Shown in pieces: positions 56,203 to 64,000 of a stretch of DNA of 64,000 nt; within the stretch, counting starts at the first letter, position 1; each line of letters begins with the position of its first letter. The DNA is taken from the NCBI GenBank assembly GCA_030835125.1, contig JAUQWM010000042.1:1-64000 (forward strand), read 5' to 3'. The position numbers were made by a program, and so were the translations under genes. Under the pieces are notes generated by a model. The model searched no databases. It saw only the letters and a program-made list of their open reading frames with translations, and was not told the origin of the DNA. This DNA is from Gemmatimonadaceae bacterium (GTDB lineage: Bacteria; Gemmatimonadota; Gemmatimonadetes; Gemmatimonadales; Gemmatimonadaceae).

Positions 56203-56907
56203 TCAGTCGTCGCCGGCGGCCGCGACCAGGACCCGCGACGCCAGGGCCGCGCCCACCTGGCACGTCGCGGACCCGATCGCCAGGGTCAGCGGCCCGTCGA
56301 ACGGGGCGCGCTGCGTGAGCGTGACCTCCGCGCCGGGCCGCAGGCCTAACGCGTCGAGGTAGCGGAGCATGCCGGGGTCCTCGTCGCCGACGCGCACCAC
56401 CCGCGTCGTCGTGCCGACCGCGGCGTCGGCCAGGGACTGGTGCGGCGTCTCATCGATCGTCCCGTCGCGGGTGGGGATCGGCGCGCCGTGCGGGTCGGTC
56501 ACCGGCTCCCCGATCGCCGCCGCCATCCGGTCGATCAGCGTGTCGCTGGCGGCGTGCTCCAGCCGCTCGGCCTCGGCGTGCACCCCGTCCCAGCCGTAGC
56601 CTAACGCCTGGACGAGGTAGGCCTCGATGACCCGGTGGCGCCGGATCGTGCGCAACGCCGCCCGCCGGCCCGCCGCCGTCAGGCGGACGCCCCGGTAGCG
56701 CTCGTAGGACACCAGCCCCTGGTCCGCCAGCCGCTGGACCATCCCGCTCACCGAGGCCGGCGCGATCGACAGGTGCTGGGCAATGTCGTTGGTCGCCGCC
56801 GCGCCGCTGTCCCGCTCGAACGCGTAGATCGCCTTCAGGTAGTCCTCCACCGGCGCCGTCAGCGGCTCGGCGCGCGCGGCCTTCGCCTTGCGCTTCCGCG
56901 CCGTCAC
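56203..56907 (-). CDS. mntR: DtxR/MntR family metal-dependent repressor
   Basis: The protein has 234 residues with a GTG start at 56907 overlapping the stop of the universal stress gene. A basic N terminus precedes the winged helix (VEDYLKAIYAFERDSGAAATNDIAQHLSIAPASVSGMVQRLADQGLVSYERYRGVRLTAAG). The metal-binding dimer domain carries HRVIEAYLVQALGYGWDGVHAEAERLEHAASDTLIDRM, and an SH3-like FeoA domain closes the protein. It is encoded with a manganese transporter, and a DtxR-type dyad lies upstream of that transporter, so it should repress the operon in response to Mn or Fe. Two TTA-GGC pairs encode its Ala-Leu-Gly. Confidence 0.93.
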   Translation of the reverse strand: MTARKRKAKAARAEPLTAPVEDYLKAIYAFERDSGAAATNDIAQHLSIAPASVSGMVQRLADQGLVSYERYRGVRLTAAGRRAALRTIRRHRVIEAYLVQALGYGWDGVHAEAERLEHAASDTLIDRMAAAIGEPVTDPHGAPIPTRDGTIDETPHQSLADAAVGTTTRVVRVGDEDPGMLRYLDALGLRPGAEVTLTQRAPFDGPLTLAIGSATCQVGAALASRVLVAAAGDD

Positions 56908-57341
56908 GGCCCTGCCTTGCCCGGCGCGCGGACCAGCAGCACCGGGACCATCGACTTGTGGCGCACGCCATTGGCGACGCTGCCGTGAATGACGTCGCCG
57001 ATCAGCCGGTGCCCATGCGTCGCCATCGCGATCAGGTCGCATCGCTCCCGCTCGGCAGCGGCGCTGATCTCGGTCGCGGGGTCCCCGGTCGCCAGGAGGG
57101 CTTCCGCCGGAACGCCCCCCGCGACCAGGCCCGCGGCGACGCGATCGAGGTACTCCCGGTCCTCGCGCATCTCCTCCGATTCGCGCAGGTCGAGCTGCCT
57201 GATGTTCCGGGCCGCCCAGCCGTCGGCGACGTGGATGAGCAGCAGCGAGGCGCCACACAGCCGCGCCAGCGGTCCCACGTGCTCGATGATGTGCGCGTCG
57301 GTGCCTGAATTCTCGAGGCAGACCAGGATGCGCTTGTACAT
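56904..57341 (-). CDS. Universal stress protein (UspA family)
   Basis: A 145-residue Usp with the N-terminal strand YKRILVCLENSGTDAHIIEH. The ATP-type motif CDLIAMATHGHRLIGDVIHGSVANGVRHKSMVPVLLV (pattern G-2x-G-9x-G-S/T) is present. The start overlaps the mntH stop (ATGA) and the end overlaps the mntR start. An accessory role in metal stress is inferred from position. Confidence 0.93.
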   Translation of the reverse strand: MYKRILVCLENSGTDAHIIEHVGPLARLCGASLLLIHVADGWAARNIRQLDLRESEEMREDREYLDRVAAGLVAGGVPAEALLATGDPATEISAAAERERCDLIAMATHGHRLIGDVIHGSVANGVRHKSMVPVLLVRAPGKAGP

Positions 57342-58729
57342 CAGGAAAACCACCCGCCTACGGTCTGCACCAGCAGCCATCCGTTCAGCGAAGCGATCAG
57401 GCCGGCGACCACGTACGCCAGGACCTTGATCCAGCCTGGATTGACGAACCTTCCCATCTTCTCGGGATCGGACGTGAACATGACCAGGGGGAAGACGGCG
57501 AACGACAGTTGCAGGCTGAGGATGACCTGGCTGAGGATGAGCAGCCGCGCGGTGCCGCTCTCCCCGTACAAGATCGCCGTGATCGCGGCGGGCACAATGG
57601 CAATCGCCCGGGTAATCAGCCGGCGCAGCCAGGGACGGATCCGGAGGTTGAGGAACCCCTCCATCACGATCTGCCCGGCCAGCGTGCCCGTCAGTGTCGA
57701 GTTCTGGCCGGACGCGAGCAGGGCCAGCGCGAAGATGACGCTCGCGCCTCCCACGCCGAGCAGCGGCGTCAGCAGCTGGTACGCGTCCTGGATCTCTGCC
57801 ACCTGCGTGTTGCCGGTGCGGTGGAAGGTCGCGGCGGCCACGATGAGGATGGCGGCATTGATGAACAGCGCGAACGAAAGGGCGATGGTCGAATCGATGA
57901 ACGCATACCGGACCGCTTCGCGCTTGCCGTCGTGCGTCTCCTCGTACTTCCGGGTCTGCACGATCGAGGAGTGCAGGTAGAGGTTGTGCGGCATGACCGT
58001 CGCACCCAGGATGCCGATCGCGATGTAGAGCATCGCCGGGTTGCGGACGATCTCGGCGGTCGGGATGAAGCCACGTGCCACGCCGCCCAGGTCCGGCTTC
58101 GACACGATGATCTCGAACAGGAAGCACAGGCCCACCACGGCGACCAGCGTGATCACCAGCGCCTCGAGCAGCCGGAAGCCCTTGTTCTGCAGGTAGAGCA
58201 CGATCAGCACGTCGAACGCGGTGATCGCCACGCCCCACGCCAGCGGGATGCCGAACAGCAGGTTGAGCGCGATCGCCGTACCGATGACCTCGGCCAGGTC
58301 GCAGGCCGCGATGGCGATTTCGCAGAGGACCCAGAGTGCCAACGACACCGGGCGCGAGTAGTGGTCGCGACAGGCCTGCGCGAGATCCCTTCCCGTGACG
58401 ATCCCCAGTTTCGAGGACAGTCCCTGCAGCAGGACTGCCATCAGGTTCGAGAGCAGGATCACGCTCAGCAGCGCGTACCCGAACTGCGAACCACCGGCGA
58501 GGTCGGTCGCCCAGTTGCCCGGGTCCATGTAGCCCACGGCCACGAGGTACCCGGGGCCCGCGAACGCCATGATTTTCCGAAGCCAATGCGTGTGCGCGAC
58601 CGGAATCGAGCGATAGACCTCGGCCAGGCTGGGCGTCACCCGGGTGCGGCGCCAGCCCCGATCTGGCGGCGCGGGCAGTGCCGCGTCAGGCGACGGAGTA
58701 TCGGGGGCAGGGGCTTCCGGGACGGTCAT
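57341..58729 (-). CDS. mntH: Nramp family manganese/divalent metal transporter
   Basis: The protein has 462 residues with eleven predicted helices. Nramp hallmarks are present: the unwound TM1 motif [20 protein letters not shown] (near residue 70) and the TM6 segment [22 protein letters not shown]. It imports Mn or related divalent metals with proton coupling. The N-terminal 35 residues are Pro-rich and probably cytosolic. It leads an operon with a Usp gene and the metal repressor, and a DtxR-type dyad lies 53 bp upstream of its ATG. Confidence 0.95.
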
Positions 58730-58781
58730 CGGGTCTTCGTGCCGCGGTTGGGCCGGGTGTTCCAGCGGGCGAAACGAGAAT

Positions 58782-58795
58782 TTAGGCTCGCCTAA
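58782..58795. promoter_or_regulatory. DtxR/MntR-type operator upstream of mntH
   Basis: TTAGGC-TC-GCCTAA is a perfect 14-bp inverted repeat 53 bp before the mntH start. It resembles the TTAGG...CCTAA half-sites of DtxR/IdeR-type boxes and lies in an otherwise AT-richer promoter segment. The metal repressor is encoded at the end of the same operon. Confidence 0.8.
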
Positions 58796-58832: not shown

Positions 58833-59531
58833 TCATGCCCCCTGCAGCGACCGGAGGCGGACGGCCAGCTGCCGGAGCATGCGCTCGGTCATTCCCCAGA
58901 CGATCCGCGCACCCACCGTGTAGCTGCTGACCCGCCACTCGTCGCCACGCACGTGTACGAGGTTCTCCTCGACGAGGTCGGGATCGGCAAAGGTGCTCCA
59001 GGGGACCCAGAACGCGTCGGCCAGTTCGGGGCTGATCGTCATCGGCAGGTCGGAAGGCGCGATGGCGACGAAGGGCGTCACGATGATCGGCGGGAGGACC
59101 GGGGTCCGCGGGCGAAGCTCGTCGAGGGAGCCGAGGACGATGCCAGAGGCGGCGAGGTCGATGCCCGTCTCCTCGAGCGTCTCGCGGACCGCGGTGTCCT
59201 GGAGGGTCGCATCAGACGAATCGCGGCGGCCGCCCGGGAGCGCGACCTGTCCGCTCCAGGGATCGCCATCACGCGTCGCCCGGAGGATCAGCAACACCTC
59301 GAGTTCGCGACTCGCGATGTGTGATTCGCCATCGTGACTCGTGATTCGTGACTCGTGACTCGGCAGTGCCTCTGGCCTCTGGCCTCCGGCCTGTGGCCTC
59401 GCCGTCAGGATGATCGCCACGGCCGCCCGCGCCGGATTGCCGTCGTCTGGCGCCGCAAGACCGGGATTGGTGCGCAGGTCCGCGGCGAGGGCCGGGAGCA
59501 GCGGATGCGCGTCGAGGAGCGGGTGCCTCAC
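58833..59531 (-). CDS. Nudix hydrolase (CoA pyrophosphatase-like) with a repeat-derived insert
   Basis: The 232-residue protein has a GTG start at 59531. The Nudix box is visible as [26 protein letters not shown], close to the GX5EX7REUXEEXGU pattern. The fold begins AAVAIIL and should continue with [13 protein letters not shown], but about 32 residues (44-75) are inserted between these strands. The DNA of this insert (59307-59405) is made of 7-bp units (GTGACTC and CTCTGGC types) and keeps the frame. CoA pyrophosphatase NudL-like activity is a family-based guess. Confidence 0.85.
59307..59405. repeat. Heptad array F inside the Nudix gene
   Basis: GCGACTC, GTGATTC, GTGACTC and CTCTGGC/CTCCGGC/CTGTGGC units follow one another for about 99 bp within the coding frame. 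The length is a multiple of three, so the frame is preserved. The GTGACTC units match array B1 at 36631. Confidence 0.85.
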
Positions 59532-59903: not shown

Positions 59904-59933
59904 GGGGGGGAATTTAGCGCAAAGCGCGCCAAC

Positions 59934-60009
59934 CTCTGCCCTCTGCCCTCTGACCTCTGACCTCCGACCTCCGACCTCCGACCTCCGACCTCTGACCTCC
60001 GACCTCGCT
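59934..60009. repeat. Heptad array G (CTCTGAC/CTCCGAC) upstream of the symporter
   Basis: About ten 7-bp units (CTCTGCC twice, CTCTGAC, CTCCGAC, CTCTGAC, CTCCGAC) fill the gap between the divergent rhodanese and symporter genes and end 20 bp before the ATG. They probably lie in the 5' leader or promoter region of the symporter gene. Confidence 0.85.
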
Positions 60010-61341: not shown

Positions 61342-62505
61342 CTATTGATTGAAGCGGAAGCGGACGAGTCGTTCAACGTCATCCTCATCTCTCTGTACCG
61401 CAAGCACGTGTGTCCGACCGAACCCCTTCACGACGGTTCGCAGGGGGAATACAAGCTGCCGGACCAATCCCTTGTTGCTGATCTCATCGTATAAGGGATG
61501 TGCACCTGCCTCGGTGCTGCGTCGCACCCAGACAGAGCCGTTATGGTGAAAGGTCACTGCGTCCGCCAGAAAGGGTGGAAGGAATGGCGGCCAGGAGTCA
61601 GGTTCCTGGATGGGGCGTCGTTCCATCGCGGTCATCGAGCTGCCATCGCGCGCCAGCGTCGTTGTCAGTTGCGCTTGCTGTCGCTCGATGCGCCATTCTC
61701 GCTTGATGGCGTCGTCTACCCGTATTTTCGTGTAGGGTATCTCGCGGGTTGCATGGCGCGTTCCGTCAGCTCGAATGAAGGCAACGCGGTACGGGTCTGG
61801 GTAGACGATCGCAACAGTCCCGTCCAGCCCGACCGCCCATTGCGTTACCGCCGGGAAGGGCCGTTCTGATTCACCTGGACTTCCCACAACGAATCCTGCG
61901 ACGAGCCTTGCTCCGGGGCCTATCGGGCGAGGCACGAAGCCAACCGTATCTGACTGGCATCGGGAAGTCCAGCGTTCGATCGCTGCGGAGTCTGTAATGC
62001 GCAGTGCACCGCCTTCAGACACCGCTACCGGCGTTGCCTCGGAGTAGTACCGGCCCATGCGATCCGCTGCGCGGAACTGCTGGGTTCTAGCTGACCGGCT
62101 TCCTTGGCACTGACCCGCTATGGCAGTCATGACGCCGCGGGGGCGAGCGTCCGCGCCAATGAAGAGAAGTCGCTCGTTTCCGCGATCGACCAGTGCGGAA
62201 GAATCTCCCCCCAATGCCAGCAAGCGCCACGGCAACGCGTACTCACCTGGCCCACTGCCCTTGCGTCCGACAATCGAGGCACCTTTCCACTGTGCGTCTA
62301 TGATGTAGAGCAGCCCGTCAGCTATGTCGAGAACAAGTGCCCGGCCATCACTGAGCTCGTGCACGGCTCCTACGCGGGTGAACCCGAATGCAAGCACGGT
62401 CTCCGGACGCATGACGGTCCGAGGAACCACCTGGCCGGCGGCGCTCGCTGTGTTCCCGGCGACACCAGCAACGGACAGCAGCAGAGTAATGGCTGTTCTA
62501 GCCAC
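61342..62505 (-). CDS. Exported six-bladed beta-propeller protein
   Basis: The product (387 residues) starts at a GTG (62505) whose codon overlaps the stop of the DsbA-like gene; the alternative ATG at 62547 overlaps it by 50 bp. The chosen start gives a neat Sec signal (MARTAITLLLSVAGVAGNTASAAGQ). The propeller shows VGRKGSGPGEYALPWRLL, the same motif as the protein at 10008. A C-terminal segment SWPPFLPPFLADAVTFHHNGSVWVRR has a close match in the partial gene at the window end. Function unknown. Confidence 0.82.
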   Translation of the reverse strand: MARTAITLLLSVAGVAGNTASAAGQVVPRTVMRPETVLAFGFTRVGAVHELSDGRALVLDIADGLLYIIDAQWKGASIVGRKGSGPGEYALPWRLLALGGDSSALVDRGNERLLFIGADARPRGVMTAIAGQCQGSRSARTQQFRAADRMGRYYSEATPVAVSEGGALRITDSAAIERWTSRCQSDTVGFVPRPIGPGARLVAGFVVGSPGESERPFPAVTQWAVGLDGTVAIVYPDPYRVAFIRADGTRHATREIPYTKIRVDDAIKREWRIERQQAQLTTTLARDGSSMTAMERRPIQEPDSWPPFLPPFLADAVTFHHNGSVWVRRSTEAGAHPLYDEISNKGLVRQLVFPLRTVVKGFGRTHVLAVQRDEDDVERLVRFRFNQ

Positions 62506-63208
62506 CCCGGACCTCGTCCGCACTCCTTCTGCCCGGAAACGGGTCATGGTCGCTCAGAATCGCCTCGACGACGCGGATGACCTCATCAGCTGGCGGCGGG
62601 GTCGGGAAACGCCAACCGTTGATGAAGATGGTCGGGGTCGCATGAAGCTGCATCTTGCTAGCCAAAGCCAAGCCGGTCTCAATCCGCGGCATCAACGGCG
62701 GATTGGTGACGCACCTAACCAGCGCAGTAGTGTCGACACCAGCAGCGAGCGCGAACTGGCCCCAGGACTTCAGCCCAATGGAGTCCTGTTGGGAATACAC
62801 GGCATCTGCGAACTGCTCGAATCGACCTTGCAAAAAGGCACACTCCGCCGCTATTGCCGCGGACATGGCGAACTTGTGACCCTGCAAAGGGAAGTGAACA
62901 TGTACGATCGACACTTTGGGACCGAACTTGGACCGGATACGAGGAACGACCGATTCGTGATAGAACTTGCAGGCTGGGCACTCGAAATCCGCAAACTCGA
63001 TCAGATTCACCACAGCGTTAGAATCGCCTGTGTGGATTCCGTTCCGAATGATATCCCTCCAGTCCTCGTGATACATCGGACTGGAGGGACGCAACACCGG
63101 ACCCTGCGGGGGGAGCGGGAAGAACTCGCGACGCACCACCGCGGCCGCCACTACGACGGCGGCCGCCGTGAGTAGTGCGGAGACGAGCCTTTCCCAGGTG
63201 GTCGTCAT
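62498..63208 (-). CDS. DsbA-like thiol oxidoreductase with N-terminal membrane anchor
   Basis: The 236-residue product has an N-terminal membrane helix (LVSALLTAAAVVVAAAVV) and a thioredoxin-fold domain of the DsbA type. The active site is FADFECPACKFYHESVVPRI, with the CPAC motif. The cis-Pro loop is HATPTIFINGWRFPTPP. It should act on the outer face of the membrane, forming or isomerising disulfides. It lies 43 bp after the gene for a six-cysteine peptide, its most likely substrate, and overlaps a beta-propeller gene. Confidence 0.92.
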   Translation of the reverse strand: MTTTWERLVSALLTAAAVVVAAAVVRREFFPLPPQGPVLRPSSPMYHEDWRDIIRNGIHTGDSNAVVNLIEFADFECPACKFYHESVVPRIRSKFGPKVSIVHVHFPLQGHKFAMSAAIAAECAFLQGRFEQFADAVYSQQDSIGLKSWGQFALAAGVDTTALVRCVTNPPLMPRIETGLALASKMQLHATPTIFINGWRFPTPPPADEVIRVVEAILSDHDPFPGRRSADEVRGG

Positions 63209-63251
63209 CAGACAGAAACAGCAGTCCAGTTGGAGAAAGCGCCTTCTGGAT

Positions 63252-63488
63252 TCAAATGGGATAGTCGTAACAAGTCAGGTCGCCAGTTGTTTCGCACGTG
63301 GCGAAGGTCCACTCGGGACACACCACATCACAGATCAACCTGATGTCATTGATCGACTTGTTCTCGCAGTCTGCGGAGAAGGACTGATTGCATCCGACAA
63401 GCGCGCCTGCCGACGCTGCTTCCGGCAATGAGAGGGCGGCGAGCCCAAGGATCAACACCAGCGCCGGTCTGAGAATCGATGATCGCAT
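63252..63488 (-). CDS. Small exported six-cysteine peptide
   Basis: The 78-residue product has a signal peptide (SSILRPALVLILGLAALSLPEAASA) and then about 52 residues with six cysteines in the pattern C-x7-C-x11-C-x3-C-x7-C-x7-C. The mature part is acidic and rich in Thr and aromatics (VVCPEWTFATCETTGDLTCYDYPI). No family is recognised. Its position before a DsbA-like gene and between two beta-propeller genes suggests disulfide-dependent maturation. A family such as NVEALA peptides in Bacteroides has a similar neighbourhood but a different sequence. Confidence 0.8.
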   Translation of the reverse strand: MRSSILRPALVLILGLAALSLPEAASAGALVGCNQSFSADCENKSINDIRLICDVVCPEWTFATCETTGDLTCYDYPI

Positions 63489-63628
63489 CGAACGCCTCGG
63501 GAAAGTGGTGAGTCACGGGAGTATGTCCCGTGCCATTCTCCACTGGCGGCCACGTTCCGGCAATAGAGCCGGGACGGTCTCTTGGATCTAGATCCCACCT
63601 CCGCAACAGCGCCATCGTACACACGCAA

Positions 63629-64000
63629 TTACCGGAAAACCGGAAGCTGATGCCTGGCGAGCTGCTGAGATCCAATCGCGACATTGGTTACAACATAGAC
63701 GGACTTTTCACCGAAGCCCATTACGCAGGACCGCGGCGGAAGTTCGACCCTGGCCGCCAGTGTTGCATTCTGGTCCACGACGTCGTAGAGCGGTGGTGAG
63801 TCTGCCGGCACGGTTCTTCGAATCCAGAGCTTGCCATCAGGCGCAAACAACGCTGGCCGGCCGAGAAACGGCGGTAGAAACTCCGGCCATGTGGGCGGCT
63901 CGTCGATGGGTGAACGTACGGACCGACACATCTGTACTTGCCTCGCCTCGCGCCACACCCTCTTCTCAACTTCGGTAACGCGGATTGAATCGAAGGGGAG
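63629..64000 (-). CDS. Beta-propeller protein, C-terminal part (5' end outside window)
   Basis: The frame is open to the window edge, so the start lies beyond 64000. The visible 123 residues align with the end of the protein at 61342: IRVTEVEKRVWREARQ matches IRVDDAIKREWRIERQ, and PPTWPEFLPPFLGRPALFAPDGKLWIRR matches its SWPPFLPPFL region. It is therefore a second member of that family, in the same cluster. Its stop lies 140 bp upstream of the cysteine-rich peptide gene. Confidence 0.8.
   Translation of the reverse strand, partial: LPFDSIRVTEVEKRVWREARQVQMCRSVRSPIDEPPTWPEFLPPFLGRPALFAPDGKLWIRRTVPADSPPLYDVVDQNATLAARVELPPRSCVMGFGEKSVYVVTNVAIGSQQLARHQLPVFR

Follow-up and report, generated by a model that had tools for sequence, protein, structure and literature searches.

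A Gemmatimonadota cassette predicted to make a disulfide-folded exported miniprotein with its own thiol oxidase

Genes of the locus

This analysis concerns a five-gene cassette on the minus strand of contig JAUQWM010000042.1 from a Gemmatimonadaceae bacterium (assembly GCA_030835125.1). The window, that is, the whole stretch of DNA that was analysed, covers the first 64,000 nucleotides of this contig, and its part 61342-64000 contains most of the cassette. The genes are a LuxR-type regulator, a beta-propeller protein (propeller 1), a small cysteine-rich exported peptide (P0001), a thiol-disulfide oxidoreductase of the DsbA type and a second beta-propeller protein (propeller 2). A sequence-only reading of the window had proposed a propeller cut by the edge, the peptide, the DsbA and propeller 2, and all four genes were confirmed on the minus strand. 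In what follows loci are labelled L and genomes G.

The peptide P0001 (63252..63488, minus strand) is, as had been proposed, a 78-residue exported peptide with a signal and six cysteines, located at positions 33, 41, 53, 57, 65 and 73. The signal spans residues ~1-28, is of the hydrophobic Sec type and has an AxA-type end (EAASA/GA), and the mature part spans residues ~29-78. A lipoprotein was considered since LVGC at residues 30-33 resembles a lipobox, but this motif lies well beyond the hydrophobic stretch and is lost in homologues, and the assignment was rejected by inspection. P0001 has no match above cut-off in Pfam or NCBIfam, and a match to NCBIfam Syntroph_Cxxx at 15.5 bits (cut-off 50) is a chance one. 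In an AlphaFold2 model built from 17 rows, the mature peptide has a beta-alpha-beta-beta arrangement with a block-mean predicted local distance difference test score (pLDDT) of 86-95 from residue 31. The CS-alpha-beta fold of defensins was looked for in this model; the beta-alpha-beta-beta order and a CxxxC are present, the CxC is absent and the Foldseek comparison was nonsignificant.

The dedicated DsbA (62498..63208, minus strand) is a membrane-anchored protein of 236 residues with an N-terminal anchor and a CPAC active site, Cys77-Pro-Ala-Cys80. It belongs to Thioredoxin_4 (PF13462, E=5e-23, 82.5 bits for a cut-off of 23.2), and its nearest solved chains are 7unn and 4pwo (DsbA) and 3eu3 (BdbD). 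Propeller 2 (61342..62505, minus strand) appears to be an exported NHL-type six-bladed beta-propeller. With a GTG start at 62505 it has a good signal peptide (VARTAITLLLSVAGVAGNTASA) and overlaps the DsbA gene by 8 bp, the overlap given in the sequence-only reading; with the alternative ATG start at 62547 the overlap becomes 50 bp. Its AlphaFold2 model (pLDDT 79.9, predicted template modelling score 0.78) has NHL domains, which are six-bladed, as best Foldseek matches (E 2e-10), and its match to PF17170 (DUF5128) at 20.9 bits falls below the cut-off of 22.9. Only the C-terminal part of propeller 1 is inside the window (63629..64000, minus strand; propeller profile E=3.8e-72). In the contig the gene is complete (63629-64804, 391 residues), and its product shares 31% identity with propeller 2. 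A further match of the propeller profile is BF0058, an exported propeller of B. fragilis (4raa, E 2.6e-7). The start of propeller 1 overlaps by 4 bp the LuxR-family regulator, which lies beyond the window at 64801-65664 of the contig (GerE E=1.5e-10). The cassette lies between an SDF-family symporter and a CotH-like gene. A PADLOC scan for defence systems gave no match and a promoter scan found nothing.

The composition of these genes sets them apart. The G+C content (GC) of the cassette is 61%, compared with 70% for the window, and GC at third codon positions (GC3) is 0.64-0.72 in its five genes and 0.89-0.95 in flanking genes. The low-GC, low-GC3 island is sharply bounded (61342-65664 of the contig, labelled G000:C20). 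Their shared deviant composition indicates that the five genes form one unit, and it is the low GC3 that caused a GC3-based gene caller to miss them. The same trend is found elsewhere: GC is below that of the surroundings in 48 of 52 related cassette loci, and GC3 is 0.67 in the DsbA subfamily described below and 0.87 in generic DsbAs. This suggests horizontal movement of low-GC cassettes or weak codon adaptation.

Peptides beside one DsbA subfamily

Homologues of P0001 are rare but they are always found with a DsbA. A search with the peptide only, in 394 genomes of the class, gave one clear match (G009) and many weak ones. In G009, and in G317, G168 and G295 where the match was weak, a DsbA homologue lies immediately downstream of the peptide, and this DsbA was not used in finding the peptides. 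A search with the family profile gave clear matches in five genomes only (5/394). In all four other genomes a DsbA of this subfamily directly follows the peptide, so there is strong support for the proposed pairing of an exported disulfide-type peptide and its dedicated DsbA. The homologues are kept in frame across genera. In their alignment six cysteines are invariant, as is the Trp of C-x3-C-[PS]-x-W. The homologue from G168 carries an additional first and an additional last cysteine, both absent from the other four, and such joint absence is expected if the two pair with each other. In G001, a second genome (72% complete) from the same genus as the window, P0001 was not found, but two DsbA loci of the subfamily with different peptides are present. 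Two weak matches, in G023 and G182, are unconvincing as P0001 homologues, yet each has a DsbA as neighbour, together with a propeller and a cysteine-rich peptide of another kind. At these two loci (L037 6951-7313 and L038 6448-6810, respectively) an exported peptide with CC pairs, unrelated to P0001, is upstream of the DsbA and the propeller.

An alignment of the DsbA was used to gather 66 subfamily loci from 40 genomes. DsbA similarity alone retrieved 61 of the 66, so the association with a peptide was not built into the sample. In a strict scan, a peptide was counted if it lay no more than 700 bp upstream and had a hydrophobic start and at least 4 cysteines. The scan was positive at 38/66 loci (two of the 38 look spurious), compared with 1.1% in shuffled DNA and 7/66 on the opposite strand. 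There were 6/64 positives downstream on the same strand. A relaxed scan located six peptides that immediately follow the DsbA (L112, two in L139, L140, L143 and L144), and peptides placed there probably explain the six downstream positives. The relaxed scan gave 62 open reading frames (ORFs) at 54/66 loci, two judged spurious and 60 credible, but the strict figures are preferable for judging significance since the relaxation came after the first look. The number of cysteines in the mature part is even in 57 of the 60 credible peptides (binomial p=3e-14), and the signal ends in a small-x-Ala motif in 71/72 peptides, AxA in 51. The disulfides that the mature peptides would contain are suggested by these even counts together with the adjacent oxidase.

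Two sets of DsbAs served as controls. Beside 23 generic DsbAs of Gemmatimonadota there were no convincing peptides (one low-complexity ORF was found, at L275). The second set came from a contig scan by a generic DsbA motif, which returned mostly ordinary DsbAs of many phyla; of these 80 relatives 8 were flagged, and the only convincing cases were three from Gemmatimonadota and one from a Chloroflexi metagenome-assembled genome (L245). In the Chloroflexi case an exported ORF with eight cysteines is directly downstream of the DsbA, at ~543-815 relative to the DsbA start; this is possibly a transfer or a parallel instance. The arrangement of peptide and DsbA is thus far above chance. These data also bear on the proposal that only the DsbA and propeller are functional and that the peptide ORFs are chance or decaying frames. 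The peptide families are indeed rare and short, and none matched a database family in those tests that were made, but the shuffled DNA, the strand control, the even cysteine counts and the generic DsbA controls all contradict it, as do the signal ends and the in-frame homologues across genera. The chance-ORF explanation was rejected on these grounds, and a role for chance or decay is highly improbable.

The DsbAs at these loci form a subfamily of their own. Among 20 peptide-linked DsbAs, C77, C80, T191 and P192 (the CxxC and the Thr-cisPro) are invariant and so are two further cysteines, 123 and 166. In a tree of 123 DsbAs, a branch with 100% support in the Shimodaira-Hasegawa-like approximate likelihood ratio test (SH-aLRT) splits 42 generic rows, which have no peptide, from 81 others, and all 65 peptide-linked DsbAs are among the 81. 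Although many inner branches are weak in this tree, which came from a quick search, the division itself is firm. The DsbA of the window lies on the subfamily side and has an adjacent cysteine-rich exported peptide. No peptide accompanies the four other DsbA loci of this genome or its propeller paralogue on contig 22. Gemmatimonadota seem to be the centre of the subfamily, because DsbAs from 30 further genomes of other phyla score no more than 165 bits and mostly lack the N-terminal anchor region. The cassette DsbA has the fold family, CxxC, cis-Pro and anchoring of MdbA/BdbD-type oxidases (PF13462). It differs from them in forming a clade apart, in the conservation of its N-terminal anchor region, in two additional invariant cysteines, in its low GC3 and in the neighbouring peptide gene.

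The adjacent peptides are mostly unrelated to one another in sequence, and those tested had no Pfam or NCBIfam match. Across Gemmatimonadota a single DsbA subfamily serves many unrelated peptides, P0001 among them, which is more than the sequence-only reading had supposed. The cysteine spacings point to at least three scaffolds: a six/eight-cysteine scaffold that includes P0001 and mostly has a CxxxC or CxxxxC core with the last cysteine near the C-terminus, a CC-CC-C-C scaffold that frequently occurs as tandem copies, and a four-cysteine scaffold. The CC-CC family has 6- and 8-cysteine forms. It could be argued that the cysteines bind metal, as in metallothioneins or zinc ribbons, or that the DsbA acts in reverse as a reductase, so that disulfides are not the point. 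Small cysteine-rich proteins often bind metal, and a Nramp/DtxR-type metal operon is present in the window (56203-58789), though outside the cassette. The redox partner, however, is an oxidase-type DsbA (Thioredoxin_4, with DsbA- and BdbD-like nearest chains) and not of the TlpA/DsbD type, the spacings are varied with even counts, and cysteines differ pairwise between relatives, as in the G168 homologue and the CC-CC forms. This explanation is therefore improbable.

Propellers and other partners

The sequence-only reading had also counted the propellers as part of the system. This is partly supported: it holds as an enrichment, since a same-strand propeller occurs at 24/54 peptide loci and at 0/23 and 0/56 generic DsbA loci, but not as a rule. 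The propeller is missing or replaced at about half of the loci and so is an optional partner. Where there is a propeller, its gene lies either downstream, where ATGA-type overlaps are frequent, or in the space between the peptide and the DsbA. The 41 downstream genes examined include 12 with CarboxypepD_reg, 5 with a TonB plug, 4 with PDZ and 3 MacB-like permeases. Regulators of the AraC, LuxR or extracytoplasmic function (ECF) type were found in 9/10 upstream genes, a sample chosen for its regulator-like look and hence not a rate. At many loci the peptide and the DsbA have a regulator of their own and share an operon with an exported propeller or a different protein of the surface or binding type.

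The principal alternative for the function of the peptides is that they stay in the periplasm or bound to the surface, as small ligand-binding or adhesion domains that join the propeller or a TonB-type protein as a subunit of a complex for uptake or sensing, and that the DsbA just folds them. Many of the downstream partners are of surface or uptake types (CarboxypepD_reg 12/41, TonB plug 5/41). The best structural overlap of P0001 is with the PAN/apple-type lectin SML-2. It is nonsignificant (template modelling score relative to the query, TMq, 0.38-0.39; probability 0.12-0.15; E ~4-6; root-mean-square deviation 2.3-2.4 over 44 columns), and there is no Pfam PAN/apple match. In contrast, the partners change from locus to locus while the peptide and the DsbA stay together, and fast divergence with tandem duplication of peptides (L122, L142, L155 and L161) better fits released effectors. 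A cell-bound role is thus rather unlikely. Each of these four loci has a CC-CC-C-C peptide repeated in tandem, in two or three copies, beside the DsbA, and a MacB-type permease follows in L155 and L161.

In the peptide families the cysteines are fixed and the loops diverge. Between L122 and L142 the DsbAs are 79% identical and the mature peptides 37-53%, and outside the cysteines the non-synonymous change per site in these peptides is near the synonymous level. Comparison of closely related loci shows a tendency for the mature part of the peptide to change more quickly than the DsbA, with the L246/L252 pair as an exception. Since the pairs are few and partly saturated, and with this exception, no claim of positive selection is made.

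Possible function and likeness to known systems

The locus is probably one instance of a cassette by which Gemmatimonadota produce an exported miniprotein folded by disulfides, together with a thiol oxidase dedicated to it. The peptide would be exported by Sec and cleaved by signal peptidase, and the anchored DsbA, facing the periplasm, would oxidise its cysteines. The folded miniprotein may then be released or displayed. The propeller, or a carboxypeptidase-regulatory or TonB-plug protein at other loci, may bind the peptide and serve as a receptor, a carrier or a means of self-protection. Several points weigh against this interpretation. No outer-membrane exporter and no immunity gene were recognised in the cassette, and the propeller and TonB-type partners are not constant among loci. 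By the rules used 12/66 subfamily loci have no peptide, some of them near a contig end, and the criteria for a peptide were loosened once the first result was known. The alignment behind the AlphaFold2 model of P0001 is shallow, and Foldseek found no significant match to the model in the Protein Data Bank (PDB).

What the miniprotein does can be suggested only tentatively. Antagonism or recognition between cells, by a toxin-like or signal peptide, is a serious possibility and is favoured over housekeeping because of the fast divergence with fixed cysteines, the patchy distribution, the low-GC islands and the local regulators. Conotoxins, defensins and nodule cysteine-rich peptides have a fixed cysteine framework and hypervariable loops behind a signal peptide. 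The cassette peptides share the fixed cysteines and variable loops behind a signal but they are bacterial, have no sequence match and no significant structural match in the PDB, and lack the CxC of the CS-alpha-beta fold. In a conotoxin-like logic, one conserved folding enzyme and changeable partners would serve many peptide scaffolds. It is conceivable, with some doubt, that Gemmatimonadota hold a large class of hypervariable disulfide-rich exported peptides of this kind, encoded on low-GC cassettes and serving antagonism or kin recognition among cells.

A comparison with the disulfide bacteriocins is also instructive. Sublancin is linked with the thiol-disulfide oxidoreductase BdbB. It is an antimicrobial peptide, and BdbB recurs in papers on it (PMC4336743, PMC6391423). 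PedC is described as a putative thiol-disulfide oxidoreductase whose co-production raised the potency of recombinant pediocin (PMC4919988). As with pediocin PA-1/PedC and sublancin/BdbB, the cassette encodes a short cysteine peptide with a dedicated thiol-disulfide oxidoreductase. Unlike them, its peptide has a Sec signal, comes from a diderm phylum and matches no peptide family, its DsbA subfamily serves many unrelated peptides, and there is no recognised ATP-binding cassette (ABC) exporter, glycosyltransferase or immunity gene. Membership among class II or glycocin-type bacteriocins was not found, as no Pfam or NCBIfam family scored above cut-off and the cassette has neither an ABC-type exporter nor an immunity gene.

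In the NVEALA layout of Bacteroides, small exported cysteine-rich peptides lie beside six-bladed propellers. The cassette likewise has a small exported cysteine-rich peptide adjoining a probable six-bladed propeller, but here the steady partner is the DsbA and the propeller is optional. The kinship that this likeness might suggest was not borne out, as NVEALA (PF14055) had no match in P0001 (E<=1) or in the whole genome (E<=0.1). A literature search that covered open-access and not subscription papers found no account of the arrangement.

The cassettes suggest that a widespread, little-cultured phylum is a source of disulfide-rich miniproteins. Sequence-family searches miss these peptides because they share almost no sequence, and the dedicated DsbA provides a usable hook, since searching for the DsbA leads to a peptide at the majority of loci. 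Should the peptides prove antibacterial or serve as signals, they would add a new set of natural scaffolds that come with a folding enzyme of their own; should they be surface domains, they would represent a new way to build receptors.

Other features were observed during this work. The minus-strand run at 56203-58789 of the window contains a Nramp-type metal transporter, a UspA-like ORF and a DtxR/MntR-type repressor with a FeoA domain. Heptamer tandem repeats occur in the window at 59932-60006 (ACCTCTG, 10.7 copies), 59332-59362 and 59368-59400 (TCGTGAC; GCCTCTG). They sit between and inside small genes and extend into what looks like the start of a rhodanese ORF. At L042 (G011:C3, 3766-8340) there is a tandem array of type IV pilin-like genes that are nearly identical to one another.
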